DNA of 64,000 bases, taken from contig NZ_JAMZCU010000001.1 in the NCBI RefSeq assembly GCF_024273195.1, forward strand, positions 248,001-312,000, in the 5' to 3' direction. Positions 16,718 through 35,335 of the stretch are shown piece after piece (positions within the stretch are counted from its first letter, which is position 1; the number at the start of each line of letters is the position of its first letter). Under the pieces are notes generated by a model. It was given only the letters and a program-made list of their open reading frames with translations, made no database searches and had not been told where the DNA came from. Made by a program: the position numbers and the translations under genes. Origin of the DNA: Devosia ureilytica (GTDB lineage: Bacteria > Pseudomonadota > Alphaproteobacteria > Rhizobiales > Devosiaceae).

Positions 16718-16745
16718 AAAAACAGTCCCGTCAAAGGGGGTGTGG

Positions 16746-17834
16746 ATGACCAAGGCAGCGTCGATCGATATCGCATCGGTTTCCAAGATTTACGGCAAGA
16801 CCACTGCCGTGGACTCGATCAGCCTCAAGATCCCCGCCGGAAGCTACTGCTGCCTGCTCGGGCCTTCGGGCTGCGGCAAGACCTCCACCCTGCGCATGAT
16901 TGCGGGGCACGAGAGCATTTCGGTGGGCGATATTCGGCTTGGGCCCACTGTCGTCAATGATCTGCCGCCCGCCAAGCGCGGCACGGCAATGATGTTCCAG
17001 TCCTACGCTCTGTTCCCGCATCTCGATCTGATCGACAATGTTGCTTTCAGCCTCACCATGGCTGGCATGACCAAGAACGAGCGCCGGGCCAAGGCGCTGG
17101 ACATGCTCACGCTCATGCAGATGGAGGCCTATGCCGACCGCCGGCCGGCCCAGCTCTCCGGTGGCCAGCAACAGCGCGTGGCCCTGGCCCGCGCGCTGAT
17201 CACTGACCCAGAGGCACTGCTGCTCGATGAGCCGCTCTCGGCGCTCGACCCCTTCCTCAAGGTGCGCATGCGCGCCGAACTCAAGAAGCTGCAGAAAAGC
17301 CTCGGCATCACCTTCGTCCACGTGACCCATAGCCAAGAAGAGGCCATGGCGCTGGCTGACCTCATCGTTGTTATGAGCGACGGGCGCATCGAACAGGCCG
17401 CGCCACCACGCGAGATTTTCGAGCGTCCGGCTACGGCTTTTGTTGCCCGCTTCATGGGTGACCACAACGTCATTTCGGGCCGCTCAGCGGGGGGCGCCGA
17501 TGGCCTGGCGCAATTGTCCATTCCGGGGGCATCGACCTTTGCCGCCATGGGCACCGCGTCCGCGGACAACCAACCCCTCGATATCGCCGTCCGCACCGAC
17601 CGGGTCCGGCTTGGTGGCCCAGTGACCAAGGGTCTCGGCTTCACCGGGATAGTTTCCAACATCGAATATCGCGGCGCCACGGTGAAGATCACCTGCGATG
17701 GCGCCGGCATTTCCGACTTCACCGCCATCATTTCCGACAAGGCGTTCTTTGCTACGACAGTCAGCGTCGGGGATGCGGTGCCCCTCAATTGGGACGCCGG
17801 GGACGCGATCGTCCTTGGTCGTCTTGATGCCTAA
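16746..17834 (+). CDS. PotA-type ABC transporter ATP-binding protein
   Basis: A 362-residue ATPase of the spermidine/putrescine-type importer group. Walker A is GPSGCGKTS, signature LSGGQQQRVALARAL, Walker B ALLLDEPLSALD and switch His HVTHSQEEAMALAD. The C-terminal 120 residues are the TOBE-like regulatory domain (LGFTGIVSNIEYRGATVKI). ATG 16746 follows AAGGGGG. A GTG six bases earlier is possible. It is the first gene of the sigma-54 operon running to about 22508. Confidence 0.93.
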   Translation: MTKAASIDIASVSKIYGKTTAVDSISLKIPAGSYCCLLGPSGCGKTSTLRMIAGHESISVGDIRLGPTVVNDLPPAKRGTAMMFQSYALFPHLDLIDNVAFSLTMAGMTKNERRAKALDMLTLMQMEAYADRRPAQLSGGQQQRVALARALITDPEALLLDEPLSALDPFLKVRMRAELKKLQKSLGITFVHVTHSQEEAMALADLIVVMSDGRIEQAAPPREIFERPATAFVARFMGDHNVISGRSAGGADGLAQLSIPGASTFAAMGTASADNQPLDIAVRTDRVRLGGPVTKGLGFTGIVSNIEYRGATVKITCDGAGISDFTAIISDKAFFATTVSVGDAVPLNWDAGDAIVLGRLDA

Positions 17835-17865
17835 ATCGTCACTCCAGCGAACAGGGACAACAGCT

Positions 17866-19158
17866 ATGACGAAGACCACAGAGAAAAAGGCGGGGATCAG
17901 CCGCCGCAACTTCCTCAAGACCGGCACTGCCGCAGTGGCGGGTGCAGCCGTCGGTTCTGGCGCCATCACCGGCTTCCCCACCATCTGGGCGCAGAACCCG
18001 ATCACGCTGCGCCAGTTTGGCACGGGCGTATCGAACCTCAATGCCATTGCCGAAAAGTGCAAGGAAGACCTCGGCATCACGCTCGAAATGACCGCCACCG
18101 ACTCCGACGCCGCCGCGCAGCGCGCCGTCACCCAGCCGGACAGCTATGACATTGCTGACATCGAATACTGGATCTTGAAGAAAGTCTTCCCCACCGGTGT
18201 CATCCAGCCCATGGATACCTCGCGCCTGACCTATTACGATCAGATCGTGCCATTGTTCAAATCGGGCAAATTGCTGCCCGACAGCGTCATTGCGCAGGGC
18301 ACCGCGCCGCACACGGTCGGCTTTGTCGAAAGCATGGACAGCAAGACTTTCGCAGCTGGCGAAACCGGCTATTTCACCATGGTCCCGACCATCTACAACG
18401 CCGACACGCTGGGCATTCGTCCTGACCTGGTCGGACGCGAAATCACGTCCTGGGCCGACATCATGGACCCGGCCTTCAAGGGCAAGACCTCGATCCTCAA
18501 CATCCCCTCGATCGGCATCATGGACGCGGCCATGATCATGGAAGCCATGGGTGAAATCACCTATGCCGACAAGGGCAACATGACCACCGAAGAAATCGAC
18601 AAGACCATCGACTTTCTGATCAAAGCCAAACAGGACGGTCAGTTCCGTGCCTTCTGGAAGAGCTTTGACGAGAGCGTCAACCTGATGGCGTCGGGCGAAG
18701 TGGTCATCCAGTCCATGTGGTCGCCAGCCGTTGCGGCCGTCCGCTCTCGCGGCATAGCCTGCAAGTATCAGCCGCTTAAGGAAGGTTACCGCTCATGGGG
18801 TGGTGGTCTGGGCCTGGCCGCCCACCTCTCCGGTGCACAGCTCGATGCCGCCTACGAATATATCAACTGGTACACGTCCGGTTGGGTCGGCGGCTACCTC
18901 AATCGCCAAGGCTATTACTCGGCCAATATGGAAACGGCCAAGCAGTACATGTCCGAGGACGAGTGGGGCTACTGGATCGAAGGCAAGGCTGCCCAGGGCG
19001 ACATCCTCGCTCCCGATGGCACAGTCATGGAAAAGGCCGGCGCCGTGCGTGATGGTGGCTCGTTCGAAGAGCGCATGGGTAAGGTTGCCTGCTGGAATTC
19101 GGTCATGGACGAAGACCGCTACATGGTTCGTCGCTGGAACGAGTTCATCGCAGCTTGA
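17866..19158 (+). CDS. PotD-type extracellular substrate-binding protein with Tat signal
   Basis: A 430-residue periplasmic binding protein of the polyamine/opine-type ABC family. The N-terminus carries a full twin-arginine signal (SRRNFLKTG, near residues 13-21) with a hydrophobic stretch ending at IWAQ, so it should leave the cell folded through TatABC, encoded at 4.7-6.5 kb. The body shows EYWILKKVFPTGVIQPMD and SWADIMDPAFKGKTSI, typical of this family. Substrate cannot be read from sequence. The downstream racemase gene suggests an amino acid, hydantoin or ureide rather than a polyamine. ATG 17866 gives an intact signal peptide. Confidence 0.92.
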   Translation: MTKTTEKKAGISRRNFLKTGTAAVAGAAVGSGAITGFPTIWAQNPITLRQFGTGVSNLNAIAEKCKEDLGITLEMTATDSDAAAQRAVTQPDSYDIADIEYWILKKVFPTGVIQPMDTSRLTYYDQIVPLFKSGKLLPDSVIAQGTAPHTVGFVESMDSKTFAAGETGYFTMVPTIYNADTLGIRPDLVGREITSWADIMDPAFKGKTSILNIPSIGIMDAAMIMEAMGEITYADKGNMTTEEIDKTIDFLIKAKQDGQFRAFWKSFDESVNLMASGEVVIQSMWSPAVAAVRSRGIACKYQPLKEGYRSWGGGLGLAAHLSGAQLDAAYEYINWYTSGWVGGYLNRQGYYSANMETAKQYMSEDEWGYWIEGKAAQGDILAPDGTVMEKAGAVRDGGSFEERMGKVACWNSVMDEDRYMVRRWNEFIAA

Positions 19159-19193
19159 TGAGACGGGGAGGTAAACCCGCCTGACACTGATCC

Positions 19194-19268
19194 GCCCTCG
19201 GGCTTGACCCGAGGGCCAATGCCAAGCTGGCACGGGTCGCGAGTGGCCCTCGGGTCAAGTCCGGGGGC
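19194..19268. repeat. Long inverted repeat between binding-protein and permease genes
   Basis: Two 25-base arms (19194-19218 and 19244-19268) are reverse complements at 23 of 25 positions. The two exceptions become G-U pairs in RNA, so the transcript can form a 25-bp stem with a 25-base loop. Each arm contains the CGGGTCAAG core, itself partly palindromic, of a repeat type often seen in rhizobial intergenic DNA. The position, 35 bases after the binding-protein stop, recalls the REP hairpins of E. coli malE-malF that raise binding-protein levels. Confidence 0.8.
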
Positions 19269-19293
19269 CGCACCGTGGAACTGGAGAGCACTG

Positions 19294-20151
19294 TTGAACA
19301 ACCTTCTGACCCGCGCGACGCCTTATCTGCAGGCAACGCCACTGACCTTGATCTTGGGCTTCTTCCTGGCTTTGCCGATCCTGCTACTCGTGCTCGTCAG
19401 CTTCTGGGACTATGATTTCGCCGGCATGTATCCGGGCTTTTTCACCTTCAACTATGCCGAAACGCTGGGCTCCTGGGTAACCTGGCGCACCTATGGCAAT
19501 ACGCTGAAATTTGCTTTCTTGGTTTGGGCAATCACGGCGTTTCTTGGGTTCTGGGTAGCCTATTTCCTGGCCTTCCACATTCGGACCACCGCCATGCAAA
19601 TGGTGCTGTTTCTTGTCTGCACTGTGCCCTTCCTGACATCCAACATCATCCGCATGATTTCCTGGATCCCGGTGCTGGGACGCAACGGATTGGTCAACTC
19701 AACTTTGGTCAGCGCAGGGGTCATTGATCAGCCAATAGAGTGGCTGCTTTATTCAGACTTCGCCGTGGTGCTCGCCATGGTGCATCTCTACACCCTCTTC
19801 ATGGTCACCCCGATCTTCAACACCATGATGCGCATTGACCGCGCCCTGGTGGAAGCGGCCCGCGATGCGGGCGCCAAGAATTGGCAGATCATCTGGCATG
19901 TCATCCTGCCGCTGGCCAAGCCGGGCATTGCCATCGGCACCATTTTCGTCGTGACCCTGGTCATGGCTGATTTCTCCACCGTGCAGGTGATGAGTGGTGG
20001 GCAATCCGCTTCGGTGGCTCTGATGATGCGCAACCAGATGAGTTTGCTGCAATATCCGGCGGCAGCCGCCAATGCAGTCGTATTGCTGGTGGTGGTCCTT
20101 GTGATGGTCGCGGGCATCCTCCGCATTGTCGATATTCGCAAGGAGCTGTGA
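19294..20151 (+). CDS. ABC transporter permease (PotB-type)
   Basis: Inner-membrane permease of the operon 1 importer. About six membrane segments are visible (TLILGFFLALPILLLVLVSF, FAFLVWAITAFLGFWVAYF and later ones), with the cytoplasmic EAA loop EAARDAGAKNWQIIWHVILPLAKPG that contacts the ATPase. The start is not ATG. TTG 19294 with GGAGAG just upstream gives MNNLLTRATPYLQATPL and 285 residues. Earlier in-frame ATG codons would run the protein through the inverted repeat and are unlikely. Confidence 0.9.
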   Translation: MNNLLTRATPYLQATPLTLILGFFLALPILLLVLVSFWDYDFAGMYPGFFTFNYAETLGSWVTWRTYGNTLKFAFLVWAITAFLGFWVAYFLAFHIRTTAMQMVLFLVCTVPFLTSNIIRMISWIPVLGRNGLVNSTLVSAGVIDQPIEWLLYSDFAVVLAMVHLYTLFMVTPIFNTMMRIDRALVEAARDAGAKNWQIIWHVILPLAKPGIAIGTIFVVTLVMADFSTVQVMSGGQSASVALMMRNQMSLLQYPAAAANAVVLLVVVLVMVAGILRIVDIRKEL

Positions 20152-20152
20152 G

Positions 20153-20968
20153 ATGAGCGAAAAACGCAGCCTCGGCTTCTATGTCCTCGCCGTCTTCTTC
20201 ATCCTTTTCGTGCTGTTCCTTTATGGCCCCCTGTCAGCGGTGTTCATTCTGAGCTTCCAGGGCCCCTCCGGGGGGCTGACCTTCCCGCTCAACGGGGTGT
20301 CATTGCACTGGTTCTTCAACCTCTTCGAGCGTCAGGCCGTGGGTGATTTCGGCGCCAGTTTTGGCCGATCCTTCGCGCTCGGACTTATGGTCATGGCGGT
20401 GACGGTGCTCGTATCACTGCTAGCAGGTTTGGCCTTTAGACGGCGCTTTTTTGGTGCAACGCCATTGTTTTACCTAACCGTGGCCAGCCTGGTGGTTCCC
20501 TCCATCATCGTCAGTCTGGGGATTGGCGTCCTCTACCAGCAGATCGGTATCCGGCCCGCCTGGTTCAGCTCCGCTTTTGGCGCCCATTTGACCTGGACGC
20601 TGCCCTTCGGCGTCCTCATCATGTTCGCGGTCTTCAACCGTTTCTCCCCCACATATGAAGAGGCGGCCCGTGACCTTGGTGCCTCCTCCTGGCAGACCTT
20701 TGCGCATGTGGTCCTGCCCATGATCGCGCCAAGCCTGATCGGTGTCGGGCTGTTCGGGTTCACCCTGTCCTATGACGAGTTCGCACGCAGTCTCATGACT
20801 TCTGGCAGCGCCAATACCTTGCCGCTCGAGATCTATGGCATGACCACCAATGTCACGACGCCGGTTCTCTACGCACTGGGGACGGTGACGACACTGTTTT
20901 CCTTCCTGGTCATTCTGGGGACCATCGGCTTGATTCAGCTTCTGCAGCGCCGGCGGGTGCGGTCATGA
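20153..20968 (+). CDS. ABC transporter permease (PotC-type)
   Basis: Second permease subunit of the importer, 271 residues with about six membrane segments and the EAA loop EEAARDLGASSWQTFAHVVLPMIAPS. ATG 20153 follows AAGGAG and lies 1 base after the upstream stop. The TGA overlaps the ATG of the racemase gene by 4 bases, so the enzyme and transporter genes are tightly coupled. Confidence 0.93.
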   Translation: MSEKRSLGFYVLAVFFILFVLFLYGPLSAVFILSFQGPSGGLTFPLNGVSLHWFFNLFERQAVGDFGASFGRSFALGLMVMAVTVLVSLLAGLAFRRRFFGATPLFYLTVASLVVPSIIVSLGIGVLYQQIGIRPAWFSSAFGAHLTWTLPFGVLIMFAVFNRFSPTYEEAARDLGASSWQTFAHVVLPMIAPSLIGVGLFGFTLSYDEFARSLMTSGSANTLPLEIYGMTTNVTTPVLYALGTVTTLFSFLVILGTIGLIQLLQRRRVRS

Positions 20969-21696
20969 CCAGGCTGCTCGTGGTCAATCCCAACACCACC
21001 GCGACCATGACCGAAACCATTGCTGCTGCCGCGCGCCAGGCGGCAGGTGGGGAAACCGCGATTGAGGCGGTGACCAGCGCCATGGGGCCCGCCTCGATTG
21101 AGGGCTTTTACGACGAAGCTTTTGCGGTGCCGGGCCTGCTGGCCACGATAGCGGCTGGCGAATCGGGTGGAGCGCAGGCAGCCATCATCGCCTGTTTCGA
21201 CGATACCGGCCTAGACGCTGCGCGCGCGATGGCGGCAATTCCGGTTCTCGGCATTTGCGAAAGCGCTCTCACTCTCGCTGCCATGATCGCCAAGCGCTTC
21301 ACCGTGGTGACCACGATGGAGCGTTCTCGCGTGCCCATTGAGGAACTCGTCGACCGCTACGGCATGGCCCGAAAGGCCCATGTTCGCGCCGCCAATATTT
21401 CGGTCCTGTCCCTGGAAGATCCCAATTCAGGCGCGCGTGATAAGCTGAGAAGCGAGATCACCCGTGCTATTGCCGAGGACAATGCAGAAGCCATCGTTCT
21501 CGGATGCGCTGGCATGGCGGATCTGGCGCGCACCCTTCAAGTCGAATTCGGCATGCCAGTGATCGACGGGGTGGGCGCGGCCGTCAAACAGGCGGAGGCT
21601 TTGGTAGCACTGGGGCTGTCCACCAGCAAACGCGGCGCCTATGCTGCGCCTGTCCCCAAACCCTATACAGGCATGTTGGCCCAATTCGCTCCATGA
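20965..21696 (+). CDS. Asp/Glu/hydantoin-type racemase
   Basis: A 243-residue member of the cofactor-independent Asp/Glu/hydantoin racemase superfamily. The N-terminus LLVVNPNTTATMTETI is typical of hydantoin and allantoin racemases (HyuE/HpxA type). The two catalytic cysteines are visible in IIACFDDTGLDAAR and VLGCAGMADL. The likely reaction is interconversion of D and L forms of a 5-substituted hydantoin or allantoin, which would let both enantiomers enter a stereospecific hydrolase pathway. No hydantoinase or allantoinase gene lies in the window, so the rest of the pathway must be elsewhere. It overlaps both neighbours by ATGA. Confidence 0.88.
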   Translation: MTRLLVVNPNTTATMTETIAAAARQAAGGETAIEAVTSAMGPASIEGFYDEAFAVPGLLATIAAGESGGAQAAIIACFDDTGLDAARAMAAIPVLGICESALTLAAMIAKRFTVVTTMERSRVPIEELVDRYGMARKAHVRAANISVLSLEDPNSGARDKLRSEITRAIAEDNAEAIVLGCAGMADLARTLQVEFGMPVIDGVGAAVKQAEALVALGLSTSKRGAYAAPVPKPYTGMLAQFAP

Positions 21697-22508
21697 CCGC
21701 TGACATTCGCATCCTCAACATCGATCAGATCGAAACACTGATCGACTGGGCTGCCGCCGAAGGCTGGAATCCGGGTCTCGACGATGCCCGACGGTTTCAA
21801 CTGGCCGATCCAAACGGTTTTCTTGGCGCCTTTGTCGATGGCCGCATGGTCGCGGGAATTTCGGTTGTCGCCTACAGCAACCAGTTCGGCTTTCTGGGGC
21901 TCTATATCTGTCATCCCGATTTTCGTGGGCAAGGCTATGGCCGCGCCGTCTGGAATGCTGGCATGGCCTATCTTGGCGACCGTACAATCGGCCTTGATGG
22001 TGTACCTCAGCAGCAGGCCAGTTACCGCAAGATGGGCTTCGTCACCGAGTACGAAACCGTCCGGATGGTGGGGGCGCTCGATCTTGTCTCGGCACGGCAT
22101 GTCAGTGTTGCGCCGATTTTGGCCGCTTCGGTCGTACGGGATGTCGACCTCGCCTGTTTTCCCAGCGAGCGACAGTCATTTTTGGAGGCTTGGATCGCGC
22201 CCCCGCACCAGGCGTGGTTCAGCACGCGCGACGGAGCGGTTACCGGCTATGTTGTTGTCCGCGAGTGCCGGACTGCGCGAAAGGTCGGTCCGCTCTTCGC
22301 CCATGACCTTGAGACAGCGATGACGCTGCTTGGCACTGTCGAGGGTGAGGTTCAGATTGATGTGCCCATGCACCAAGTTGCTTTGCTGGCCAAGCTGAAA
22401 GAGCGCGGTTTTGACGGGCAATTCAACACGGCCAGAATGTATCGAGGCGCCGCACCTGACGTTCGTCTCGATCGTGTCTTTGCGGTGTCGACGCTCGAAC
22501 TAGGGTAG
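21693..22508 (+). CDS. GNAT N-acetyltransferase with C-terminal extension
   Basis: A 271-residue protein. The first 130 residues are a GNAT fold (the acetyl-CoA loop is seen in HPDFRGQGYGRAVWNAG), and the second half (APILAASVVRDVDLACFPSERQSFLEAW onward) resembles the Acetyltransf_18-type domain often joined to it. ATG 21693 overlaps the racemase stop by 4 bases, so it is the last gene of the sigma-54 operon. The substrate is unknown. It could acetylate the imported compound or a product of it. Confidence 0.85.
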   Translation: MTADIRILNIDQIETLIDWAAAEGWNPGLDDARRFQLADPNGFLGAFVDGRMVAGISVVAYSNQFGFLGLYICHPDFRGQGYGRAVWNAGMAYLGDRTIGLDGVPQQQASYRKMGFVTEYETVRMVGALDLVSARHVSVAPILAASVVRDVDLACFPSERQSFLEAWIAPPHQAWFSTRDGAVTGYVVVRECRTARKVGPLFAHDLETAMTLLGTVEGEVQIDVPMHQVALLAKLKERGFDGQFNTARMYRGAAPDVRLDRVFAVSTLELG

Positions 22509-22813
22509 TTCGTCAACCTCGTTACGCACGCCTCAGAATGGCCAGCTGCGTCTCCCCAAAACCTCCAGTAACCAAGATCCGTCGATGGCTCAAATCTTCG
22601 GTGGCCGCGGAATATCCGCCTTTCTGCTTTGTGCCTCAAATCGAACGATCGCGGCCGACATTCAGGCGCAAACAAGGAGTTGCCAAGCGCGAAATCAGCG
22701 ATGTTTCCGCTGCGACCGTGCTGAGGTGCATGCCTGTTTGTGCCTCGACGATTGCATGCAACTTGCAGTCTTTTTGCCGCGGGGTTAGTCAGATGCCCTG
22801 AATGGAGGCGCAC
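22509..22813. other. Intergenic gap between operon 1 and the TetR gene
   Basis: A 305-base stretch with no convincing coding potential on either strand and no intrinsic terminator after the GNAT gene. The only notable element is the perfect palindrome TTGCATGCAA at 22752-22761, about 50 bases before the TetR start, which could be a regulator site. Confidence 0.5.
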
Positions 22814-23497
22814 ATGCGGGCAGCGAAAAAGCGGATCGGACCGCCCTCTGGTCCGCGGCAGCTCAATATTGCCGAAACCCGCGACAAGATTCTAAGGGCC
22901 GCTATCGTCCAATTCGCCAAAAATGGCTTTTCGGGCGCGCGCATCGAGAGCATCTGTAAAGACGCAGACGTCAATGCGCGCATGGTCTATCATTACTATG
23001 TCGACAAGGCCGGCCTTTACGTGGCCGTGCTTGAGCACGTCCTGGGTGAATTGCGGACCGAGGAGCTCAAGCTCGATGTCTCTGCCGCAGAGCCGATTGA
23101 TGGCCTTTTGACCATGTTCGACTTCATTTTCGGTCACTTTGCCAAGCACCCCGAACTCATCCGCTTGCTCTCGGCGGAGAACCTGCTGGAAGGGAGCTAT
23201 CTCAAGACCTCGATGGCGACCCCGGCAGTTGCATCACCGGTGGTCGAGCATATCGATACGCTTTTACGGCGTGGTGAAGAGCAGGGTGCGGTGCGGGTCG
23301 GGATCGATGCTCTGCACCTCTATGTGGTCATGGTCGCGCTTTCCTATTTCCACAAGTCCAACGCCTATACCTTGGCCACCATCTGGAACGACGCGCTTCT
23401 CACCCGAGATTGGCAGAACGATCATCGTGCCTTTGCGCGAAGCATGCTCGCTACCTTCTTGGCGCCTGTCCCTGCTTCCCAAACTGCCTGCCCATAA
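22814..23497 (+). CDS. TetR-family transcriptional regulator
   Basis: A 227-residue regulator with an N-terminal TetR helix-turn-helix (AIVQFAKNGFSGARIESICKDADVNARMVYHYYVDKAGLY). The C-terminal ligand domain (MFDFIFGHFAKHPELIRLLSAENLLEG) is of the TetR_C_29-like type. ATG 22814 has GGAGG 5 bases upstream, which favours it over ATG 22802. It precedes and reads in the same direction as the BMP transporter operon. A TetR next to RutB- and RutC-like genes recalls RutR, although the sequence is not closely RutR-like. The inverted repeat at 23685-23708 is its best candidate operator. Confidence 0.9.
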   Translation: MRAAKKRIGPPSGPRQLNIAETRDKILRAAIVQFAKNGFSGARIESICKDADVNARMVYHYYVDKAGLYVAVLEHVLGELRTEELKLDVSAAEPIDGLLTMFDFIFGHFAKHPELIRLLSAENLLEGSYLKTSMATPAVASPVVEHIDTLLRRGEEQGAVRVGIDALHLYVVMVALSYFHKSNAYTLATIWNDALLTRDWQNDHRAFARSMLATFLAPVPASQTACP

Positions 23498-23669
23498 TTT
23501 AAGCAACCTCCGCCTCTTGCCTGGGCATTGATCTAGGGGCGTGCCCCGATTGGTCGGCTCAGCACATTGCTGCCTCGATATTCGAGCTTAAGTTGTTCAT
23601 CCCGCAAGTCTTTTAAGTATATAGTTTTTTACTAAATGGCGGTGGCCGAAGGAGCGTCCCGGACGGGTT

Positions 23670-23685
23670 TGGCACGCCGATTGCA
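23670..23685 (+). promoter_or_regulatory. Sigma-54 (-24/-12) promoter of operon 2
   Basis: TGGCACGCCGATTGCA is a full match to TGGCACG-N4-TTGC(A). Predicted start of transcription is near 23696, 32 bases before the ATG. It is the second perfect sigma-54 site within 7 kb, upstream of the same kind of gene set. Confidence 0.87.
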
Positions 23686-23708
23686 TTAGTAAGTGGGTGA
23701 TTACTAAT
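23685..23708. promoter_or_regulatory. Inverted repeat overlapping the operon 2 start site
   Basis: ATTAGTAA and TTACTAAT form a perfect 8-8-8 inverted repeat covering about -11 to +13 relative to the expected sigma-54 start. That position suits a repressor that blocks open-complex formation. The adjacent TetR is the obvious candidate. A further half-site, TTACTAAA, lies at 23629-23636. Confidence 0.6.
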
Positions 23709-23727
23709 TCGGTGCAAGGACTCCACC

Positions 23728-24795
23728 ATGACGCTTAAACATTTGCTCAGTGCAGCGCTGGCCGCTTCAGCGCTCGTTGCTCTCCCCGTTTCGGCCGACG
23801 ATAACAAAATCGGCTTCATCTATGTCGGTCCGGCCGCCGACTATGGCTACAACATGTCCATGGACCTCGGCCGCCTCTACCTGGAGGAGAAGATTGAGGG
23901 CATCGAGACCACTGCGATCGAGAACATTCCTGAATCGGCCGAAGTCGAGCAGGTCATGGAGCGCCTGATCAATTCTGGTCACTCCATCATCTTTGCCACG
24001 AGCTATGGCTATCTCGACTACGCAATTGCCCTTGGTGAAAAATACCCTGACGTAAAATTCCTCCATGCTGGCGGTCTCAAGACGTCAGACAATGTCGGCA
24101 CCTATTGGGCTGATAGCGACGATGGCATGTATCTGGCCGGTATCGCAGCCGGCGAGAAATCGGAAACCGGCAAGCTGGGCTTTATCGGCGCGTTCCAGAT
24201 CCCGCAGCTCTTCCGCTCCATCAACGCCTTCACGCTGGGTGCGCAATCCGTCAATCCGGACGCAACCGTGACGGTGGTCTGGACCGGCGGATGGTGGGAG
24301 CCGCAGAAGGAAGCCGATGCGGTCAACGCATTTGCCGATGAAGGCATTGACGTCATTGCCGAGCAGGTGGACAGCCCCATCACCATTGCGCAGACTGCCG
24401 AGAAGCGCGGTGTTCATATCATCGGCAAGGACGTCAATGTGATGGATCGGGCTCCGGCTGCGTGGTTGACCGGCGTTTCCTGGAACTGGGGACCGATGAT
24501 GGAGCAACTGGTTTCCGAAATCCACGCTGGGACCTGGACGCCTTCACATTTGCGCAGCGACCTGGCTGGCGGTGCTGCCGTGCTTGATCCGTTTGGCGAT
24601 GCGGTTCCTGCGGAAGTGCAGTCGGCCGTGGTCGCCAAGAAGGACGAGATCGTGGGCGGCAGCTTCGACATCTGGAGCGGCCCTATTCTCAAACAGGACG
24701 GTTCGGAAGCCGTCGGTGCTGGCTCTGCACTCGACATGACGGCCATCGAAAGCATGGACTTTCTGGTTCAGGGCGTGATCGGTTCGACCAACTGA
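23728..24795 (+). CDS. BMP-family ABC transporter substrate-binding protein
   Basis: A 355-residue periplasmic protein of the basic membrane protein (BMP/Med) family, whose characterised members bind nucleosides, purines and related heterocycles. The Sec signal peptide is HLLSAALAASALVALPVSAD. The mature part begins NKIGFIYVGPAADYGYNM. Other family features are FLHAGG, GFIGAFQIPQLFRSINAFTLGAQ and VSWNWGPMMEQLV. AAGGA precedes the ATG. It is the first gene of the sigma-54 operon. The substrate is probably a nucleobase-like or ureide compound, given the hydrolase genes downstream. Confidence 0.93.
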   Translation: MTLKHLLSAALAASALVALPVSADDNKIGFIYVGPAADYGYNMSMDLGRLYLEEKIEGIETTAIENIPESAEVEQVMERLINSGHSIIFATSYGYLDYAIALGEKYPDVKFLHAGGLKTSDNVGTYWADSDDGMYLAGIAAGEKSETGKLGFIGAFQIPQLFRSINAFTLGAQSVNPDATVTVVWTGGWWEPQKEADAVNAFADEGIDVIAEQVDSPITIAQTAEKRGVHIIGKDVNVMDRAPAAWLTGVSWNWGPMMEQLVSEIHAGTWTPSHLRSDLAGGAAVLDPFGDAVPAEVQSAVVAKKDEIVGGSFDIWSGPILKQDGSEAVGAGSALDMTAIESMDFLVQGVIGSTN

Positions 24796-24844
24796 CCTGC
24801 CGGGGCGGTGCCTCGGCTCCGCCCCTATTTGCAAGGAGATACTA

Positions 24845-25657
24845 ATGAGTGTGGCACCCAAGCCCGGCGAGCAATCAACAATCCTGATGGGGCAGGATGC
24901 CAGCCGTGGCTGGCAGGTCAGTCATGATCATGTCGATATGAGCCGACCGGCCCGACCGTTGCGTCCACTCTTTCTGGATGCTGAACCACAGACCGTAACT
25001 GTCGATGCCAACAAGTCGGCGCTGCTGATTGTCGACATGCAGAATGATTTCTGCACCCAAGGCGGCTGGCTGCATTCCCGCGGCATCGACATCACCCCCA
25101 ACCGCAAGCCCATCGAGCCTTTGCGCAAGGCCATCGCGGCGAGCCGCGAGGCCGATATTCCGGTTGTCTGGGTCAATTGGGGGGTGCGCAAGGATCTGCT
25201 CAACATCGCGCCTTCTCTCCAACATGCCCACAATCCGCACGGCAATGAGACTAATCTGGCTCAACCTGTTCCCGGCACGCGGTCCGAGGTGATTGCGGCG
25301 GGCAGCTGGGGCGCGCGGGTGGTTGATGAGATCAATCCCGGCACCGGTGATTACCAGATCACCAAGCATCGCTTCAGCGCCTTCTGGGACTGCGAAACTG
25401 ATGCGGTTCTGCGCAATCTTGGAGTGACCACACTCCTGGTCTGCGGGGTCAATCTCGACCAATGCGTCATGACCACCCTCGAGGACGCAACCTTCCTCGG
25501 CTACGACGTCATTCTCCTCGAGGACTGCGCGGCCACCACTTCCCCCGATTATTGCGTGCAGAGCGTGCTCTACAACGTCAAGCTACTGTTTGGCTTTGTC
25601 GCGCGCTCCACCACCTATTTGCAGGCGCTCGACGCCGAAGGATATGCCGGCAAATGA
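24845..25657 (+). CDS. Isochorismatase-family cysteine hydrolase, RutB-like
   Basis: A 270-residue amidohydrolase of the isochorismatase superfamily. The catalytic triad is intact: Asp64 (LLIVDMQNDF), Lys174 (ITKHRFSAFW) and Cys207 (GVNLDQCVMTT). The KHRFSAF, FLGYDVILLEDCAA and LFGFVA segments are close to RutB, the ureidoacrylate amidohydrolase of pyrimidine catabolism. N-carbamoylsarcosine amidase and biuret hydrolase are other members. The reaction is thus probably hydrolysis of a ureido or carbamoyl amide, releasing ammonia and CO2. Its stop overlaps the RidA ATG by 4 bases. No RutA-type monooxygenase is present. Confidence 0.9.
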   Translation: MSVAPKPGEQSTILMGQDASRGWQVSHDHVDMSRPARPLRPLFLDAEPQTVTVDANKSALLIVDMQNDFCTQGGWLHSRGIDITPNRKPIEPLRKAIAASREADIPVVWVNWGVRKDLLNIAPSLQHAHNPHGNETNLAQPVPGTRSEVIAAGSWGARVVDEINPGTGDYQITKHRFSAFWDCETDAVLRNLGVTTLLVCGVNLDQCVMTTLEDATFLGYDVILLEDCAATTSPDYCVQSVLYNVKLLFGFVARSTTYLQALDAEGYAGK

Positions 25658-26136
25658 CCAGCGTCGTTTCCAACACAGCCGAAAATCAGTTGCGTGAACT
25701 CGGTATCGAATTGCCCAATGTTCCCCGTCCCATTGCCAATTTCGTGCCCTGGCAGCGGCATGGCGACGTTATCTATCTGGCGGGCCAAGTCTGCGAATGG
25801 AATGGCAGTGTAGTCTATAAGGGCAAGGTGGGCGATGCCGTCGATTTCGATACTGCGCGGGACGGCGCGCGCATTTGCGGCCTCAACTTGCTGGCAGCTC
25901 TGCGGGAGGCGCTGGACAACGATCTGAACCGCGTCCGGTCTTGTCTTCGCGTAGGCGGTTTCGTGCATTGCGCGCCCGACTTTCTGCAGGTTCCGCAGGT
26001 AATCAACGGCGCGTCGGACCTGTTTCATTCGATCTTCGGGCCCGAAATTGGCGCCCATGCCCGTACAGCCGTCGGGGTGGCACAATTGCCCCAGGGGGCG
26101 TCGGTTGAGGTCGATGCCATCTTCGTGGTCGACTGA
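25654..26136 (+). CDS. RidA/YjgF-family protein (RutC-like position)
   Basis: A 160-residue RidA-superfamily protein (GDVIYLAGQVCEW near residue 35, then LLAALREALDNDLNRVRSCLRV and GAHARTAVGVAQLPQGASVEVDAIF). The Arg of the ARTAVGVAQLP segment aligns with the key active-site Arg of RidA deaminases, so imine or aminoacrylate hydrolysis is plausible. Together with the RutB-like hydrolase it mirrors the rutB-rutC pair. ATG 25654 overlaps the upstream stop. The next ATG follows after 2 bases. Confidence 0.9.
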   Translation: MTSVVSNTAENQLRELGIELPNVPRPIANFVPWQRHGDVIYLAGQVCEWNGSVVYKGKVGDAVDFDTARDGARICGLNLLAALREALDNDLNRVRSCLRVGGFVHCAPDFLQVPQVINGASDLFHSIFGPEIGAHARTAVGVAQLPQGASVEVDAIFVVD

Positions 26137-26138
26137 AC

Positions 26139-27635
26139 ATGCCCGAAAGCCTTGTTCAGTTCGCTGGCGTGACGCGCAGGTTTGGTGACCTGATAGCTGT
26201 CAACAATGCCAGCCTCGACATCCGCGCCGGAGAAGTTCTCGCCATATTGGGCGAGAATGGCGCGGGCAAATCCACACTGATGAAAATGCTCTATGGTCTC
26301 TATCCGGCCAGCGAAGGGCAGATCCTGCTCGACGGCGCTCCCGCCAAGATCTCCGGGCCGGCCGATGCCATGCGCAATGGCATCGGCATGGTGTTCCAGC
26401 ATTTCTCCTTGCTGCCTGCCCTGTCCGTGCGGGACAATCTGCTTCTGTCGTGGCCCAAAACCCCGTTCTGGAAAAGCCACCGCAATGCCAGAACGGACGA
26501 CGTTCTGACGTCCTTGGCCGAGCTGGCGCCGCAGATTGATCCCGAGCGTATCGTGAGCTCCCTCTCGGTCGGCGAACAACAGTTAGTCGAACTGTGCAAG
26601 GTGCTCAATATCAATGCGCGCCTCGTTATTCTCGATGAACCAACCTCGGTCCTAACTCCTGCCGAGGCGACGCGTCTGCATGGTTTTATCAAGCAACTGG
26701 CGGGACGCGGTGTGGCCGTGGCGCTGATCACTCACAAGCTTGCAGACGTTGAGGCCTGCGCCGACCGGATCGTCGTCATGAGGCGTGGCAGCGTTGTCGA
26801 CATCGCCGAGCGCGGCGCACGCAGTATGGCCGAAACAGTCGCGCTGATGATGGGCCAAAGCGTTGATCGCACGCTGCGGCCGCCACCAGCATTCGGAAGA
26901 ACGGTTCCCCGGCTGGTGCTTGAAAATGTTTCCGCACAACGTCCTGACATGAGCTTGCAGGGTATTTCACTCAGCATTGCCGCTGGCGAAATCGTCGGTG
27001 TCGCCGGTGTTGCGGGGAATGGACAGGCGTTGCTGGCGGAGGCTGTGGCCGGAGTTGAACCTCTTACCGCTGGAGACATCCTGCTAGATGGTGTGTCCAT
27101 TGCGCGTCACACCCCCTTCGAGGCTGTCTCGACGCCATTGGGCTATATTCCTGAACAGCCGCGCGACAATGGCGTTGTCGCAACCATGTCTCTGGCGCGC
27201 AACCTGGCTCTACGCGATCTGGCCCAGGGCAAGCGCGCCACGGGCAGGCACGCTAATCTCCTGGAGCGCTTCAACGTCAATCCGCCCGATCCAGCCAAAC
27301 TGGCGGGGACACTGTCGGGCGGCAATGTGCAAAAGCTTGTCATCGCCCGCGAGCTGGGCATTCAGCGTGACGCCATTCTGGCCTGCTATCCGACAATGGG
27401 TCTCGATCTGGCGGCCATCGAAATGGTGTACGCGGCCATGTTTGCCCAGGCGGCATCTGGAGCAGCGGTGCTCTGGATTTCCGAGGACCTTGATGACCTG
27501 CTGGCGGGCTCGCACCGCATCGCGGTAATGCGCGAGGGGCGATTGGTCGCGCTGCTCGACAATGACGGCACGCTCAGCCGCGAGGCCGTCGGCGCGCTCA
27601 TGACTGGCATGACCGAGACGGAGGCCGCAGCGTGA
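26139..27635 (+). CDS. BMP-type ABC transporter ATP-binding protein, two ABC domains
   Basis: A 498-residue ATPase with two tandem ABC cassettes. The first is complete: Walker A GENGAGKST, signature LSVGEQQLVELCKVL, Walker B LVILDEPTSVL. The second has a degenerate Walker A (GVAGNGQAL, with Gln in place of the Lys) but keeps the LSGGNVQKLVIARE signature, the usual pattern in NupA/YufO-like importers. It overlaps the next gene by 4 bases. Confidence 0.94.
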   Translation: MPESLVQFAGVTRRFGDLIAVNNASLDIRAGEVLAILGENGAGKSTLMKMLYGLYPASEGQILLDGAPAKISGPADAMRNGIGMVFQHFSLLPALSVRDNLLLSWPKTPFWKSHRNARTDDVLTSLAELAPQIDPERIVSSLSVGEQQLVELCKVLNINARLVILDEPTSVLTPAEATRLHGFIKQLAGRGVAVALITHKLADVEACADRIVVMRRGSVVDIAERGARSMAETVALMMGQSVDRTLRPPPAFGRTVPRLVLENVSAQRPDMSLQGISLSIAAGEIVGVAGVAGNGQALLAEAVAGVEPLTAGDILLDGVSIARHTPFEAVSTPLGYIPEQPRDNGVVATMSLARNLALRDLAQGKRATGRHANLLERFNVNPPDPAKLAGTLSGGNVQKLVIARELGIQRDAILACYPTMGLDLAAIEMVYAAMFAQAASGAAVLWISEDLDDLLAGSHRIAVMREGRLVALLDNDGTLSREAVGALMTGMTETEAAA

Positions 27636-28660
27636 GCCCGCGTATTCTGGGCGCTGCGTCGCCCTTCATCCTAACAATTTTCGTCTTCCTGTTTCTTGCA
27701 GTCGCATTGTTTATCGGTCTGGGCCAACCGCCCTTTCAGACGCTGGCCGTGCTGGTGCAGTTTGCCGTGGGTGACAGCTACTCACTGTCTCAGACGATGG
27801 CGAAAACCACACCAATTCTGCTCTGCGCTCTGGCCGCTGCGGTGCCCGGACGCCTCGGATTGATCTCGGTGGGTGCCGAGGGGCAATTGCATGCCGGCGC
27901 TATCGCTGGAACTGCTCTTGTGCTTCTGGCCCCGGTCTGGCCCGCGCCAGTTCTGATCCCGCTCATGTTGATCTTTGCTGCAATTGGCGGGGCAATCTAC
28001 GGCTATATTCCCGGCCTGCTGCGCGCGCGTCTCGACGTCAACGAAACGATCGTGACGCTGCTCATGAACTATGTGACCGTCTTGCTGGTGGCCGCTCTGG
28101 TCTTCGGCCCCTGGCGTGATCCGGCGAGCCAGGGCTGGCCTGCGACCATGCAGTTCCCGCCCAATGCCGTGCTGCCCGCCCTTCCGGGCAGTCGTATCCA
28201 TCTCGGCCTGCTGCTCGGGCTCGTCGCCGCCTTGGCGCTCCACATCTACTTCAATCACAGCCGTTGGGCCGACAAGGTTCGCATCCTTGCAGGCAACCGC
28301 AAGGTCGGCGAGACTTTCGGGCTCAGCTTCGGCTTTTGGGTCATGGTGTTGATGAGTGTGGGCGGCGCTCTGGCCGGCCTTGCAGGCATTTCTGAAGTCT
28401 CCGCCATTCAAGGGCGCCTGCAACAATCGATCTCGTTGGGCTACGGCCTGACCGGTTTCCTCGTAAGTTGGCTCTCTCGGCACCAACCCCTGATCATCCT
28501 GCCGGTATCGCTCTGCGTCGGCGGATTGGTTGCCGGTAGCGATGCCTTGCAGATGTTTGCAAAGGTCCCCGCGGCCAGCGCGGTCATTTTGCAGGGTCTG
28601 TTGTTCGCGGCAGCCCTGGCCGTTCCCGGGCTGCTGGCTCGCTGGAGGAAAGCACAATGA
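27632..28660 (+). CDS. BMP-type ABC transporter permease 1
   Basis: A 342-residue membrane protein of the BPD_transp_2 (nucleoside/branched-chain-type) permease family with 8-10 hydrophobic segments. Characteristic are GAEGQLHAGAIAGTAL near residue 80, LRARLDVNETIVTLLMNYV and GYGLTGFLVSWLSRHQP. It uses the GTG 27632 start overlapping the ATPase stop and is coupled to the next permease by a 4-base overlap. Confidence 0.92.
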   Translation: MSPRILGAASPFILTIFVFLFLAVALFIGLGQPPFQTLAVLVQFAVGDSYSLSQTMAKTTPILLCALAAAVPGRLGLISVGAEGQLHAGAIAGTALVLLAPVWPAPVLIPLMLIFAAIGGAIYGYIPGLLRARLDVNETIVTLLMNYVTVLLVAALVFGPWRDPASQGWPATMQFPPNAVLPALPGSRIHLGLLLGLVAALALHIYFNHSRWADKVRILAGNRKVGETFGLSFGFWVMVLMSVGGALAGLAGISEVSAIQGRLQQSISLGYGLTGFLVSWLSRHQPLIILPVSLCVGGLVAGSDALQMFAKVPAASAVILQGLLFAAALAVPGLLARWRKAQ

Positions 28661-29580
28661 GCGTCGAAATGATCGCCATTCTGGCGAGCTGGGGCATTGC
28701 CACCTTGCGTAGCGCCACGCCACTGATCTTTGCCACCTTGGGCGAGACACTGGTGCAACGGGTGGGCATTATCAATCTGGGCACGGAGGGCGAAATGCTG
28801 CTCGGCGCCTGTGTCGGCTTTGCCGTCGGTGTCGCCACCGGCAATCCATGGCTCGGCCTCATGGCTGGCGCACTGGCGGGAGCCGTGCTTTCGCTGCTTC
28901 ATGCGGGACTGGTTCTGGGTGCGGGCGCAAACCAGATCGGGTCGGGCCTTGCCGTCTGGATGATCGCGCTTGGTGCCACGTCCTATTTCGGTCGGGCGCT
29001 GGTCGGGCAGCAGGTCACGCCGCTCCCCTCACTCGGATCGGACTGGTCAGATGGCATTCCACTTGTCGGAACGATCCTGTCGCAAATGACGATGGCCGCG
29101 CCCATGGCGCTTGCAGCGGTCGTTTTTGCGGCCTGGTGGCTGAACCAGACTCGCCCTGGCCTACACTGGAAGGCCGTGGGCGAATCCGCCCTGATCGCTG
29201 CCGAAAACGGCATCAGACCCATTCGTGTGCGGGTGACTGCGATCATGGTGGGTGGTCTTCTCGCCGGGCTTGGTGGTGCAATTCTTTCGGTCGACTACAC
29301 GCAGACCTGGGCGCAGGAAATGACCAAGGGGCGTGGGCTGGTGGCCGTGGGGCTGGTAATCGTCGCCCGCTGGAAGCCGGCTCTGGTCCTGCCTGTCTGC
29401 CTGCTATTCGGGCTGACAGAGGTGGCCACGCTGCGGCTGCAATCGGCGGGCTTCGAGCTCTCGCCGCACTTGTTGGGCACCGCACCCTATCTTGTCGTGC
29501 TCCTGGTCCTGGTCGGCAGCCATGTTGTGGCCCGGCGCGCTTCCGCCATGCCCGCAGACCTCAAAGCCGTATTCCAGTAA
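28657..29580 (+). CDS. BMP-type ABC transporter permease 2
   Basis: A 307-residue partner permease. Seen are the family motif INLGTEGEMLLGACVGFAVG, GANQIGSGLAVWMIALG and GESALIAAENGIRPIRVRVTAIMVGGLLAGLGGAIL. It is the last gene of operon 2. No clear terminator follows in the 84 bases before the convergent small gene, where a 12-base palindrome (TGGTCATGACCA, 29617-29628) lies. Confidence 0.92.
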   Translation: MSVEMIAILASWGIATLRSATPLIFATLGETLVQRVGIINLGTEGEMLLGACVGFAVGVATGNPWLGLMAGALAGAVLSLLHAGLVLGAGANQIGSGLAVWMIALGATSYFGRALVGQQVTPLPSLGSDWSDGIPLVGTILSQMTMAAPMALAAVVFAAWWLNQTRPGLHWKAVGESALIAAENGIRPIRVRVTAIMVGGLLAGLGGAILSVDYTQTWAQEMTKGRGLVAVGLVIVARWKPALVLPVCLLFGLTEVATLRLQSAGFELSPHLLGTAPYLVVLLVLVGSHVVARRASAMPADLKAVFQ

Positions 29581-30016: not shown

Positions 30017-30250
30017 TCAGGCTAGCTTAACTTGCTCTTCGTATTCAACTGGGCTGAGAAAGCCCAGTGTTGAGGGTCGGCGCCTCGGGTTGTAGAAGCG
30101 CTCGACATTGTCGAACACATCAGCCTTGGCTTCGTCTCTGGTGCGATAGACCTTGGCTCCGGTGTGTTCGCTCTTGAGCGAGGAGAAGAAGAGCTCCGTC
30201 GCCGCGTTGTCCCAGACATGGCCGGACCGCCGCATCGAGAAGGTGAGAAA
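30017..30250 (-). pseudogene. IS3-family transposase (OrfB), C-terminal remnant
   Basis: The minus-strand frame reads MRRSGHVWDNAATELFFSSL and continues with a YRTRDEAKADVFDNVERFYN segment and LGFLSPVEYEE, the end of an IS3-group integrase with its last catalytic Glu region. Homology stops abruptly at about 30250, and the DDE Asp residues and the rest of the transposase are missing. No flanking inverted repeats or orfA were found. It is a dead fragment of a larger element. Confidence 0.85.
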
Positions 30251-30846
30251 TGCGGTGCCTTGGACCGCCGGCAGGTCGGCTGGGGCAGGGGCTTTGCTAT
30301 CGACCATGGGCGCCTCGACTTCCGGACGATGCCTCTTGGGCTCACACGGGCGCGTTGCAGCGCCGTCCGGCCACAGGGCTTCACGGTTGCAGGTATTGGG
30401 CGTGGCTCCGAGACGGCTTCGTCCCTGAGTTAGTTTTTAGTGGGACGAAGACCGCCTCGGAACGCCGGGTTTCTCCTGCCCGGCAAGGCCCCTTTTGATC
30501 GCTCGTCGCAAGGTGACCCACCAAGCAGGCAAGCCCTGGAGCGACCCGGGGCTCAACCGGCACCTTCCGCATCTGGTCGCTGCAGACCGCCCGTCGCAGA
30601 AGAGATGAGGCGATTCTGCCGGAGGTTTTGGGGGCGGGGATAAGTTGGGGGCGATTGGTTGTCTGGGGGGGGCAACGCGGTGTTGTTCTTGAGTTTGGCC
30701 GACCGGCAGTTTGCGCGGAAGCCCCTCCCGCACGTTTAACCAAGACTGTTCTTCGAAATTTTGCCCGGCTTGGACGTTCACGAGTGGTACGGTTTTGTAA
30801 GGGCCGAGGTCGCTCCCTCAGCCTTCTTTGTTTCTGAAATTAAGTT
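30251..30846. other. Gene-free, hairpin-rich region downstream of nrdJ
   Basis: About 600 bases with no convincing gene on either strand but many strong inverted repeats. One is an 18/19-base imperfect stem at 30408-30425 and 30442-30460, with a 16-base T-rich loop. Another is a GCCGGG/CCCGGC stem near 30464-30485. A third is an AGCGACC/GGTCGCT stem near 30540-30590. This pattern fits a structured non-coding RNA, or remains of the element that brought the IS fragment. Strand and ends cannot be fixed by eye. Confidence 0.4.
30408..30460. repeat. Imperfect 18-bp inverted repeat
   Basis: CCGAGACGGCTTCGTCCC (30408-30425) pairs with the 19 bases at 30442-30460 with one mismatch and one bulge. The loop holds GTTAGTTTTTAGT. 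It is the strongest stem of the gene-free region. No T-run follows the stem on either strand. Confidence 0.65.
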
Positions 30847-34888: not shown

Positions 34889-35335
34889 GGTAATATGTGG
34901 ATTACGGGGACAAATAGCAAGCAAATCAGGTGACTTGGTGGGCGTTCTGGAGGCCGGTTCGAGGCCATTGAAGGTGTCCATGAGCGACGCGAATTTCCAC
35001 CGCTAAGAGGCCGGAATTCCTCGCTGATCGGGATCGCACCAAGGTCGTTTACCGGGCGTTATCCATAAGGAAAATGTCTAGAATCGGATCGGGCAGACAG
35101 GTGTCAAGCGCAGAATTTTTGTCAATCGCATGACAGTTGGGGACACAATATCTAGTCGATCACGCACAGCCCGCGCCGCTGCACATGGAAGACTCAGTGC
35201 GTCAGCGCACTGCGTCCGGCCCAGCTCAGCCAGCGCTGCTTCTATGTCGAGACAGGCGGCAATTCGGTCTAGGCTCCTGTCGCGGCCCATGTTACACCCG
35301 GCCAAACGCGCATATCTCGACGGCGGAATCGAAAA
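34889..35335. other. Intergenic region between nrdJ and the NDUFA12 gene
   Basis: Nearly 450 bases without a supported gene. Open frames here have no recognisable family and no ribosome sites. A single NrdR-box-like sequence lies at 35143-35158. The stretch must also hold the promoter of the NDUFA12-DUF2155 genes. Confidence 0.5.
35143..35158. promoter_or_regulatory. Solitary NrdR-box-like sequence
   Basis: ACACAATATCTAGTCG matches the NrdR consensus at 13 of 16 positions but has no partner at 31 bp. It lies about 190 bases before the NDUFA12 gene and about 290 bases from the nrdJ boxes. It may be chance or a distal site. Confidence 0.3.

Follow-up and report, generated by a model that had tools for sequence, protein, structure and literature searches.

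A seven-gene operon of Devosia ureilytica joins a BMP-type ABC transporter to an isochorismatase-like cysteine hydrolase and a Rid1-like protein

Organization of the operon

The window analyzed here is a stretch of 64,000 nucleotides from the Devosia ureilytica genome (contig NZ_JAMZCU010000001.1, positions 248,001 to 312,000). Seven genes on the plus strand of the window, at 22802-29580, run in the same direction and encode a TetR-family regulator, a BMP-type substrate-binding protein (SBP), a cysteine hydrolase, a Rid protein, a double ATPase and two permeases. The regulator (TetR_C_29; 22802..23497, +) matches PF17938 with 110.3 bits, and the BMP/PnrA-type SBP (23728..24795, +) matches PF02608 with 148.5 bits (cut-off 24.1). 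The isochorismatase-like hydrolase, 270 aa in length (24845..25657, +), scores 129.3 bits against PF00857 (gathering cut-off 27), and the Rid1-like protein of 160 aa, a predicted imine/enamine deaminase (25654..26136, +), exceeds the gathering scores of both PF14588 (53.8 bits) and PF01042 (40.1 bits); these three matches are far above chance. The remaining genes encode the double ATPase of the ABC transporter (26139..27635, +; ABC_ATP_B6, 395.7 bits, below the cut-off of 670) and two BMP-type permeases, permease 1 (27632..28660, +; NF047929, 118.2 bits) and permease 2, the final gene of the block (28657..29580, +; NF047928, 128.1 bits), each scoring below the cut-off of its model. The BMP-type transporter genes (23728-24795 and 26139-29580) accordingly flank the hydrolase/Rid pair, in which the hydrolase stop codon and the Rid start codon overlap by 4 bp, as ATGA; the ATG at 25654 is the most likely start of the Rid gene, rather than the mechanical ORF start at 25462. 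An earlier note on this DNA had described the two overlapping reading frames and tied them to a BMP transporter; both frames are present as described, and the link to the transporter is kept in all six intact loci that we found, the window included.

An operator-like palindrome, TTAGTAA-N8-TTACTAA, lies 5' of the BMP gene (23686..23707) and is the only exact match in the 3.81 Mb genome. Every one of the six loci that hold both a TetR and an SBP gene, including a decayed one, has the core of this palindrome, GTAA-N8-TTAC, in the space separating the two. In the window, the core occurs twice against an expectation of 0.05, the other copy, at 34890, having no obvious link to the operon. A second site in the same intergenic gap (23614..23635) differs from the palindrome by 2 mismatches and is suggestive only: the genome holds two sites within 2 mismatches of the full palindrome, both in this operon, and the reversed control pattern yields 3 per strand, so that by count the weaker site does not exceed chance. 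Given this distribution of sites, the idea that the TetR regulon extends to a ring-opening enzyme was discarded. The TetR protein probably controls the operon, and control of the RutR type is not indicated by the score against the RutR model (47.7 bits, cut-off 368).

Conservation and mobility

Six intact operons were identified (the window, G029, G217, G332, L014 and L015), and all six encode the SBP, the hydrolase, the Rid protein, the ATPase and both permeases; the TetR gene is present in five and missing in L015, whose gene order differs. One further copy, in G120 (L164:8086-12319), is decayed, with a stop codon in the hydrolase gene, a broken SBP gene and no match to the Rid, ATPase or permease genes. 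Orthologues of the window hydrolase, hereafter type-1, are rare: 3 of 136 genomes of the family carry one, counting the present genome and the decayed copy, and an even sample of 385 genomes from the class added two more. One of the six, L014, comes from a record titled Frankia sp. RB7 that holds a TonB-receptor-like ORF (210-2720) and may be a mislabelled proteobacterial assembly.

Comparison of the window with the congener G029 revealed 81% DNA identity over 6.8 kb (22758-29579), which corresponds to the seven genes, and no other DNA homology in the 24 kb compared. Because the homology is confined to the seven-gene block, the operon seems to move as a single unit. The genes for a polyamine-type transporter, an Asp/Glu/hydantoin racemase and a GNAT protein that precede the block (16740-22508) were considered as parts of the system and set aside, given that the DNA shared with G029 begins at 22758 and that relatives of the hydrolase show no excess of polyamine-type permease genes nearby. 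A transposase-like fragment may be present just 3' of the operon (30017-30307, minus strand).

The cysteine hydrolase

The catalytic triad of the hydrolase, located where the earlier note had claimed it, consists of D64, K174 and C207 (DMQNDF from residue 64, KHRFSAFW from 174 and NLDQC from 203) and, along with the PF00857 score, identifies the protein as a member of the isochorismatase-like family. The curated cut-offs for RutB and BiuH are both beyond its reach: the best NCBIfam model, that of RutB (TIGR03614), gives 147.9 bits, less than half of the cut-off of 377.95, and the BiuH model (NF050097) gives 113.1 bits against a cut-off of 370. The best sequence matches in the PDB are RutB (135.7 bits), the biuret hydrolase 6xjm (98.4 bits) and BiuH 6azo (92.9 bits). 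When an AlphaFold2 model of the hydrolase (mean pLDDT 81.4) was compared with known structures using VIA-align, RutB, TrtA and BiuH produced Z scores of 25.8-27.5 (TrtA on top with 27.5), isochorismatase domains about 20-21 and nicotinamidases 18.4-19.3, and a Foldseek search with the same model ranked RutB first. The structure alignment (A2) covers 24 rows, leaving out L015, L094, L018 and RutB and with two rows one codon shorter. Structure was dropped as an arbiter between RutB and BiuH/TrtA, since the VIA-align result is a tie and Foldseek puts RutB first, and the placement relative to these families is left to the phylogeny.

In a 54-row tree, for which EntB was chosen as the root, the window hydrolase and its five orthologues form the type-1 clade (support 100/99), which lies inside a larger clade (98/96) together with relatives that we denote type-2, and this larger clade is sister to the BiuH and TrtA rows, with support of 97/87 for both together. 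RutB, PncA, YcaC, YecD and EntB fall outside, the single PncA and the single EntB row being on very long branches. Removal of five long-branch rows (PncA, YcaC, EntB, YecD and L013) left the grouping with BiuH/TrtA in place (96/89), again with RutB outside; a clade of the hydrolase and RutB was not rejected in an AU test (difference of 4.02 log units, p-AU 0.093). Taken together, the trees lean toward the hydrolase representing a third clade beside BiuH and TrtA, with kinship toward the biuret and triuret systems. PDB matches, trees and fold Z scores thus bear out the expectation of an amidohydrolase from the RutB/BiuH/TrtA neighbourhood, distinct from PncA and from isochorismatase proper. The phylogeny against RutB and biuret hydrolase that had been proposed as a check separates the protein from PncA and isochorismatase proper and, in the best trees, places RutB outside, at a p-AU of 0.093 for the alternative. 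The label of a RutB/RutC-like pair survives in part: the neighbourhood is right and a RutB clade is not rejected, but the scores are far under the RutB cut-off, the sister group is BiuH/TrtA and, as detailed below, the Rid protein is nearest to Rid1.

The clade of type-1 and type-2 hydrolases has the signature WVNWG plus GxNxD[QRH]C, where BiuH and TrtA have GxTTDVC or GxTTEVC instead. All 34 type-1 and type-2 rows share K-x-R (174-176) and Asn203, and 32 of them also have NWG at 111-113. The column of BiuH Lys145 is occupied by F177 in the window hydrolase, and the site of Gln215 is a deletion (VKL-LFG); neither a Lys in that column nor the Gln215 insert occurs in any of the 34 rows. Equivalents of both residues are found in 10/10 BiuH-over-cut-off and TrtA-like rows and are missing in 2/2 RutB rows and in L124, which lies on the BiuH side with a score under the cut-off. 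In BiuH, Lys145 variants are effectively inactive, and Gln215Ala and Gln215Glu raise KM more than 25-fold (PMC5806882). The TrtA residues Lys132 and Gln202, whose roles are described in PMC7948467, occupy the same alignment columns and likewise have no equivalents in the hydrolase. With these residues missing, the hydrolase is, by the known determinants, not a biuret or triuret hydrolase, and biuret hydrolysis, which the earlier note had listed as an alternative activity, is disfavoured.

Among the best 80 of 266 confirmed relatives, the clade spans records titled Proteobacteria, Cyanobacteria, Bacillota and Actinomycetota, and the type-2 proteins are 41-52% identical to the window hydrolase. 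A search of the open-licence literature found no clade member with a known activity, and the substrate class is for this reason deduced from relatives and neighbouring genes.

The Rid protein

The key Arg of the Rid protein, which had been expected to be kept, is R137 (HARTAVGV), the equivalent of Arg105 of the active subgroup (RidA, Rid1-3 and RutC), and is retained in all six type-1 Rid proteins. According to PMC8113886, Rid4-7 are without this Arg, and the RutC variant R104A is inactive. The best PDB match, 3d01 (126.9 bits), has no name on its entry; the nearest named PDB relatives are PA0814 (97.2 bits) and ACIAD3089 (72.6 bits), both classed as Rid1 in Table 3 of PMC5619798, where imine deaminase activity in vitro, with none on iminoarginine, is reported for the two proteins. 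The window protein thus appears to be Rid1-like, and with these relatives the label RutC was dropped; the comparison with RutC was made by alignment to the E. coli protein. The substrate range of Rid1 proteins is broad, taking in 2-aminoacrylate and imino acids (PMC5619798), and the authors of that paper knew, as of 2017, of no phenotype from the loss of any Rid1-7 member; DadY is one of the other Rid proteins treated in later work (PMC9714295).

The Rid gene directly follows the hydrolase gene in all six intact operons, and only 2 of the 80 named hydrolase relatives (best 80 of 266), both of type-1, have a Rid homologue in the surrounding 5 kb. The Rid protein probably clears unstable imines; from gene coupling alone, we infer that it acts on the product of the hydrolase.

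The substrate-binding protein

The closest PDB matches of the SBP are 3s99 and 6pi5 (AtzT), at about 247 bits each and 36-38% identity. The SBP phylogeny (29 rows) recovers the SBPs of BiuH/TrtA clusters as the sister group of the six type-1 proteins (97/96), with AtzT and 3s99 next, and sets the type-2 SBPs apart as a distant lineage. The hydrolase and SBP trees agree but are not independent because both genes travel together. AtzT has a KD of about 110 nM for guanine, which it holds between Tyr45 and Trp194, with Ser97, Glu165, Asn218 and Asn220 (PMC6834077). In AtzT numbering, all six type-1 SBPs have Tyr45, Ser97, Tyr98, Gln165, Ser169, Trp194, Gln218 and Asp220. In the 11 SBP rows labelled biuret, among them L080 as a putative BiuH-cluster member, Ser97, Phe98, Asn169, Trp194, His218 and Asp220 are constant and position 165 is Gln or Ser.

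Neighbourhoods of relatives

Genes near the hydrolase were counted with tblastn (at least 55 bits) for the best 80 of 266 confirmed relatives, up to 5 kb from the gene (746 kb) vs 5-10 kb away (638 kb); the queries for AMD and AtzE overlap in what they match, and the one for TrtA simply finds the hydrolase again. Enrichment near vs far in these 80 was found for cupin (49 vs 1), BMP SBP (16 vs 1), HpxZ-family (12 vs 1), TRZ/ATZ amidohydrolase (25 vs 7), GGT (8 vs 3), creatininase-family (11 vs 5) and amidase genes (17 vs 9), and none for polyamine-type permease (4 vs 7), TetR (2 vs 3) or Rid genes (2 vs 1); two of the 16 loci with a BMP SBP within 5 kb are type-1. Named relatives with ureide-type neighbours include those of Pantoea pSOD02, Rhizobium leguminosarum pRL9b4, Roseomonas mucosa, Variovorax and Paraburkholderia (AtzE and HpxZ); a Streptomyces type-2 relative is without them. 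A small cupin gene lies beside the type-2 hydrolases of L110, L112 and L026; in L110 and L112, its product weakly resembles ureidoglycine aminohydrolase (about 20-28 bits). In G029, a GGT-family gene located 3' of the type-1 operon is 84% identical to the GGT gene at the type-2 locus of the D. ureilytica genome, and the GGT beside the decayed hydrolase in G120 scores best, both chains summed, with 5hft, which we take to be the Klebsiella oxamate amidohydrolase HpxW. Collectively, the neighbours of the hydrolase clade point to ureide metabolism and to no particular substrate, and this context may not apply to type-1, given the distant SBP lineage of the type-2 loci and the lack of a Rid gene within 5 kb of them.

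A BMP-type transporter is also the regular companion of BiuH. Genes homologous to permease 2 and the ATPase of the operon flank BiuH in 13 of the 14 loci with an over-cut-off gene (15 genomes are over the cut-off), and the longer BiuH stretches, 9/9, include the SBP as well. No such permease or ATPase genes were found up to 1.5 kb from four other family loci (L120, which is RutB, L123, L125 and L133); L124, which the tree places close to BiuH, is accompanied by them. Co-occurrence of biuH and trtA with bmpA-nupABC is reported in PMC12625717, and operons holding TrtA, BiuH and AtzF in PMC7948467.

The rest of the genome

No RutA was detected over the cut-off of 498.3 bits anywhere in the D. ureilytica genome (3.81 Mb, completeness 99.21), the two matches scoring 32.3 and 28.5 bits; the same search was over cut-off in 2 of 14 control genomes. 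The absence of RutA that the earlier note had reported therefore extends genome-wide at this cut-off, and its suggestion of a ring-opening enzyme encoded elsewhere has gained a candidate, a D-hydantoinase/dihydropyrimidinase (598.4 bits, over cut-off). An allophanate hydrolase is also encoded (762.3 bits, over cut-off), and no AtzE over cut-off was found in this genome.

The genome has three BMP-linked loci, namely the type-1 operon, a type-2 locus on C16 with an amidase and a GGT gene, and a TrtA/BiuH locus on C1. The type-2 locus (L005:7271-17173) comprises genes for TetR, an amidase, a hydrolase (46% identity), a divergent BMP transporter, GGT and a TauE-like protein. On the same stretch (L005:2376-3943), a small isochorismatase-like gene overlaps that of an LLM oxidoreductase (TIGR03885, 464 bits, over cut-off), which matches RutA only weakly. 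The TrtA of the genome scores 325.7 bits to 6xix, and directly behind it lies an HpxZ-family gene (146.7 bits, over cut-off). This is the position where, we infer, TrtB is to be expected; with an HpxZ match there, carboxybiuret and oxalurate contexts are indistinguishable, and HpxZ-family neighbours were discarded as proof of oxalurate metabolism. In the TrtA/BiuH cluster (L006:7923-9275; G000:C1:572922-574274), the reading frame of a permease continues without a break into that of BiuH, of which the C-terminal portion is present (model positions 56-221, 305.5 bits); this permease-BiuH fusion, without the part holding the catalytic Asp, reflects a deletion or an assembly error.

Proposed pathway and alternatives

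With moderate confidence, we propose that the operon imports a planar ureide or nucleobase-like compound, hydrolyzes a carbamoyl or amide group and then hydrolyzes the resulting enamine or imine by Rid1-type chemistry. In the SBP, a Tyr and a Trp would clamp a flat ligand in the way AtzT clamps guanine, with a different polar ring around it (Gln165, Gln218 and Asp220). Cys207, activated by Asp64 and Lys174, would attack the carbamoyl or amide carbonyl, with release of ammonia or carbamate, and the product would be an enamine or imine that the coupled Rid1-like protein would convert to a carbonyl compound and ammonia. As a best guess for the chemistry, the order envisaged in the earlier note, an amidohydrolase followed by imine/enamine hydrolysis, is retained; the reading of the two proteins as a RutB/RutC pair is borne out in part, given the kinship leaning to biuret/triuret systems and the Rid1-like nature of the Rid protein.

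A Rut-like branch, in which a divergent ureidoacrylate amidohydrolase would act on a ureido acid that is imported or derived from ring opening elsewhere and the Rid protein would take the role of RutC on 3-aminoacrylate, appears unlikely. RutB as the best match among both PDB entries (135.7 bits) and NCBIfam models (147.9 bits), the K-x-R-x-S motif and missing Gln215 insert common to the hydrolase and RutB, and the p-AU of 0.093 speak for this branch, but the RutB score is under half of the cut-off, the best tree has RutB outside (96/89), no RutA is over cut-off, the nearest named Rid relatives are Rid1 proteins, and the SBP is kin to those of biuret/triuret clusters.

There is a rather small chance that the hydrolase itself opens an imported cyclic amide or imide and that the Rid protein clears the resulting enamine. 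If the ring were cut directly by the hydrolase, no oxygenase or separate cyclic amidohydrolase would be needed, and the seven conserved genes include no known ring-opening enzyme; the PDB structures closest to the SBP, 3s99 and AtzT, bind purines, and the SBP retains the aromatic sandwich; and two members of the same family, RutB and Mhpg, are reported to open a bicyclic gamma-lactam (PMC12553813, PMC5353710). However, no ring-opening member nearer to the hydrolase clade was found, and the hydantoinase of the genome could perform this step.

That the Rid protein is a general damage-control protein, not acting on the hydrolase product, we consider very improbable. The broad action of Rid1 proteins on 2-aminoacrylate and imino acids (PMC5619798) and the 78 of 80 named hydrolase relatives (best 80 of 266) without a Rid homologue within 5 kb are compatible with such a role, but the gene stands directly after that of the hydrolase, with the Arg kept, in 6/6 intact operons.

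Least of all do we expect the hydrolase to cut biuret or triuret in place of the truncated BiuH of the genome, for which the sister hydrolase clade and sister SBP of the BiuH/TrtA systems and the presence of TrtA, allophanate hydrolase and a short BiuH fused to a permease could be cited, but against which stand F177 in the Lys145 column, the Lys and Gln215 insert found in 0/34 clade rows, and the lack of an obvious role for the Rid protein, because hydrolysis to allophanate yields no enamine.

Beyond the proposed sequence of import, carbamoyl or amide hydrolysis and Rid1-type hydrolysis, the operon could be an oxygenase-free counterpart of the Rut pathway, in which a nucleobase-like ring is imported by the BMP transporter and cut by the third BiuH-like clade, with a dedicated Rid1-type deaminase taking over the enamine. 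We regard this extension as doubtful; if true, it would place Rid1 proteins in a physiological pathway. Hydrolases for biuret and triuret have been described before, as have the BMP transporters that go with them (PMC7948467, PMC12625717); to these, the present analysis adds the third, separate hydrolase clade and the compact type-1 operon, with its own regulator and importer, in which the hydrolase is coupled to a Rid1-like protein. A natural Rid1 substrate could be reached directly through the type-1 operon, via the SBP ligand and then the hydrolase product.

Comparison with known systems

Like the biuret/triuret clusters, to which its hydrolase and SBP clades are sister, the type-1 operon has an isochorismatase-like cysteine hydrolase in a BMP-type ABC transporter operon; unlike them, it includes a Rid gene, and none of its seven genes is of the AtzF or TrtB type. 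With the E. coli rut operon, it shares an amidohydrolase beside a Rid protein and the K-x-R-[YF]-S motif, RutB being the best PDB sequence match of the hydrolase, but it has an ABC importer, not RutG, and no RutD, RutE or RutF-type gene among the seven. Hydrolases of the same clade, with GxNxD[QRH]C, are encoded at the type-2 loci alongside amidase, cupin, GGT and HpxZ/AtzE-family genes; these loci differ in their distant SBP lineage and in having no Rid gene within 5 kb (best 80 of 266). From the purine-binding BMP proteins AtzT and 3s99, the type-1 SBP keeps Tyr45 (Trp in 3s99), Ser97 and Trp194, whereas Glu165, Asn169, Asn218 and Asn220 of AtzT are replaced by Gln, Ser, Gln and Asp, respectively, in all six type-1 SBPs.
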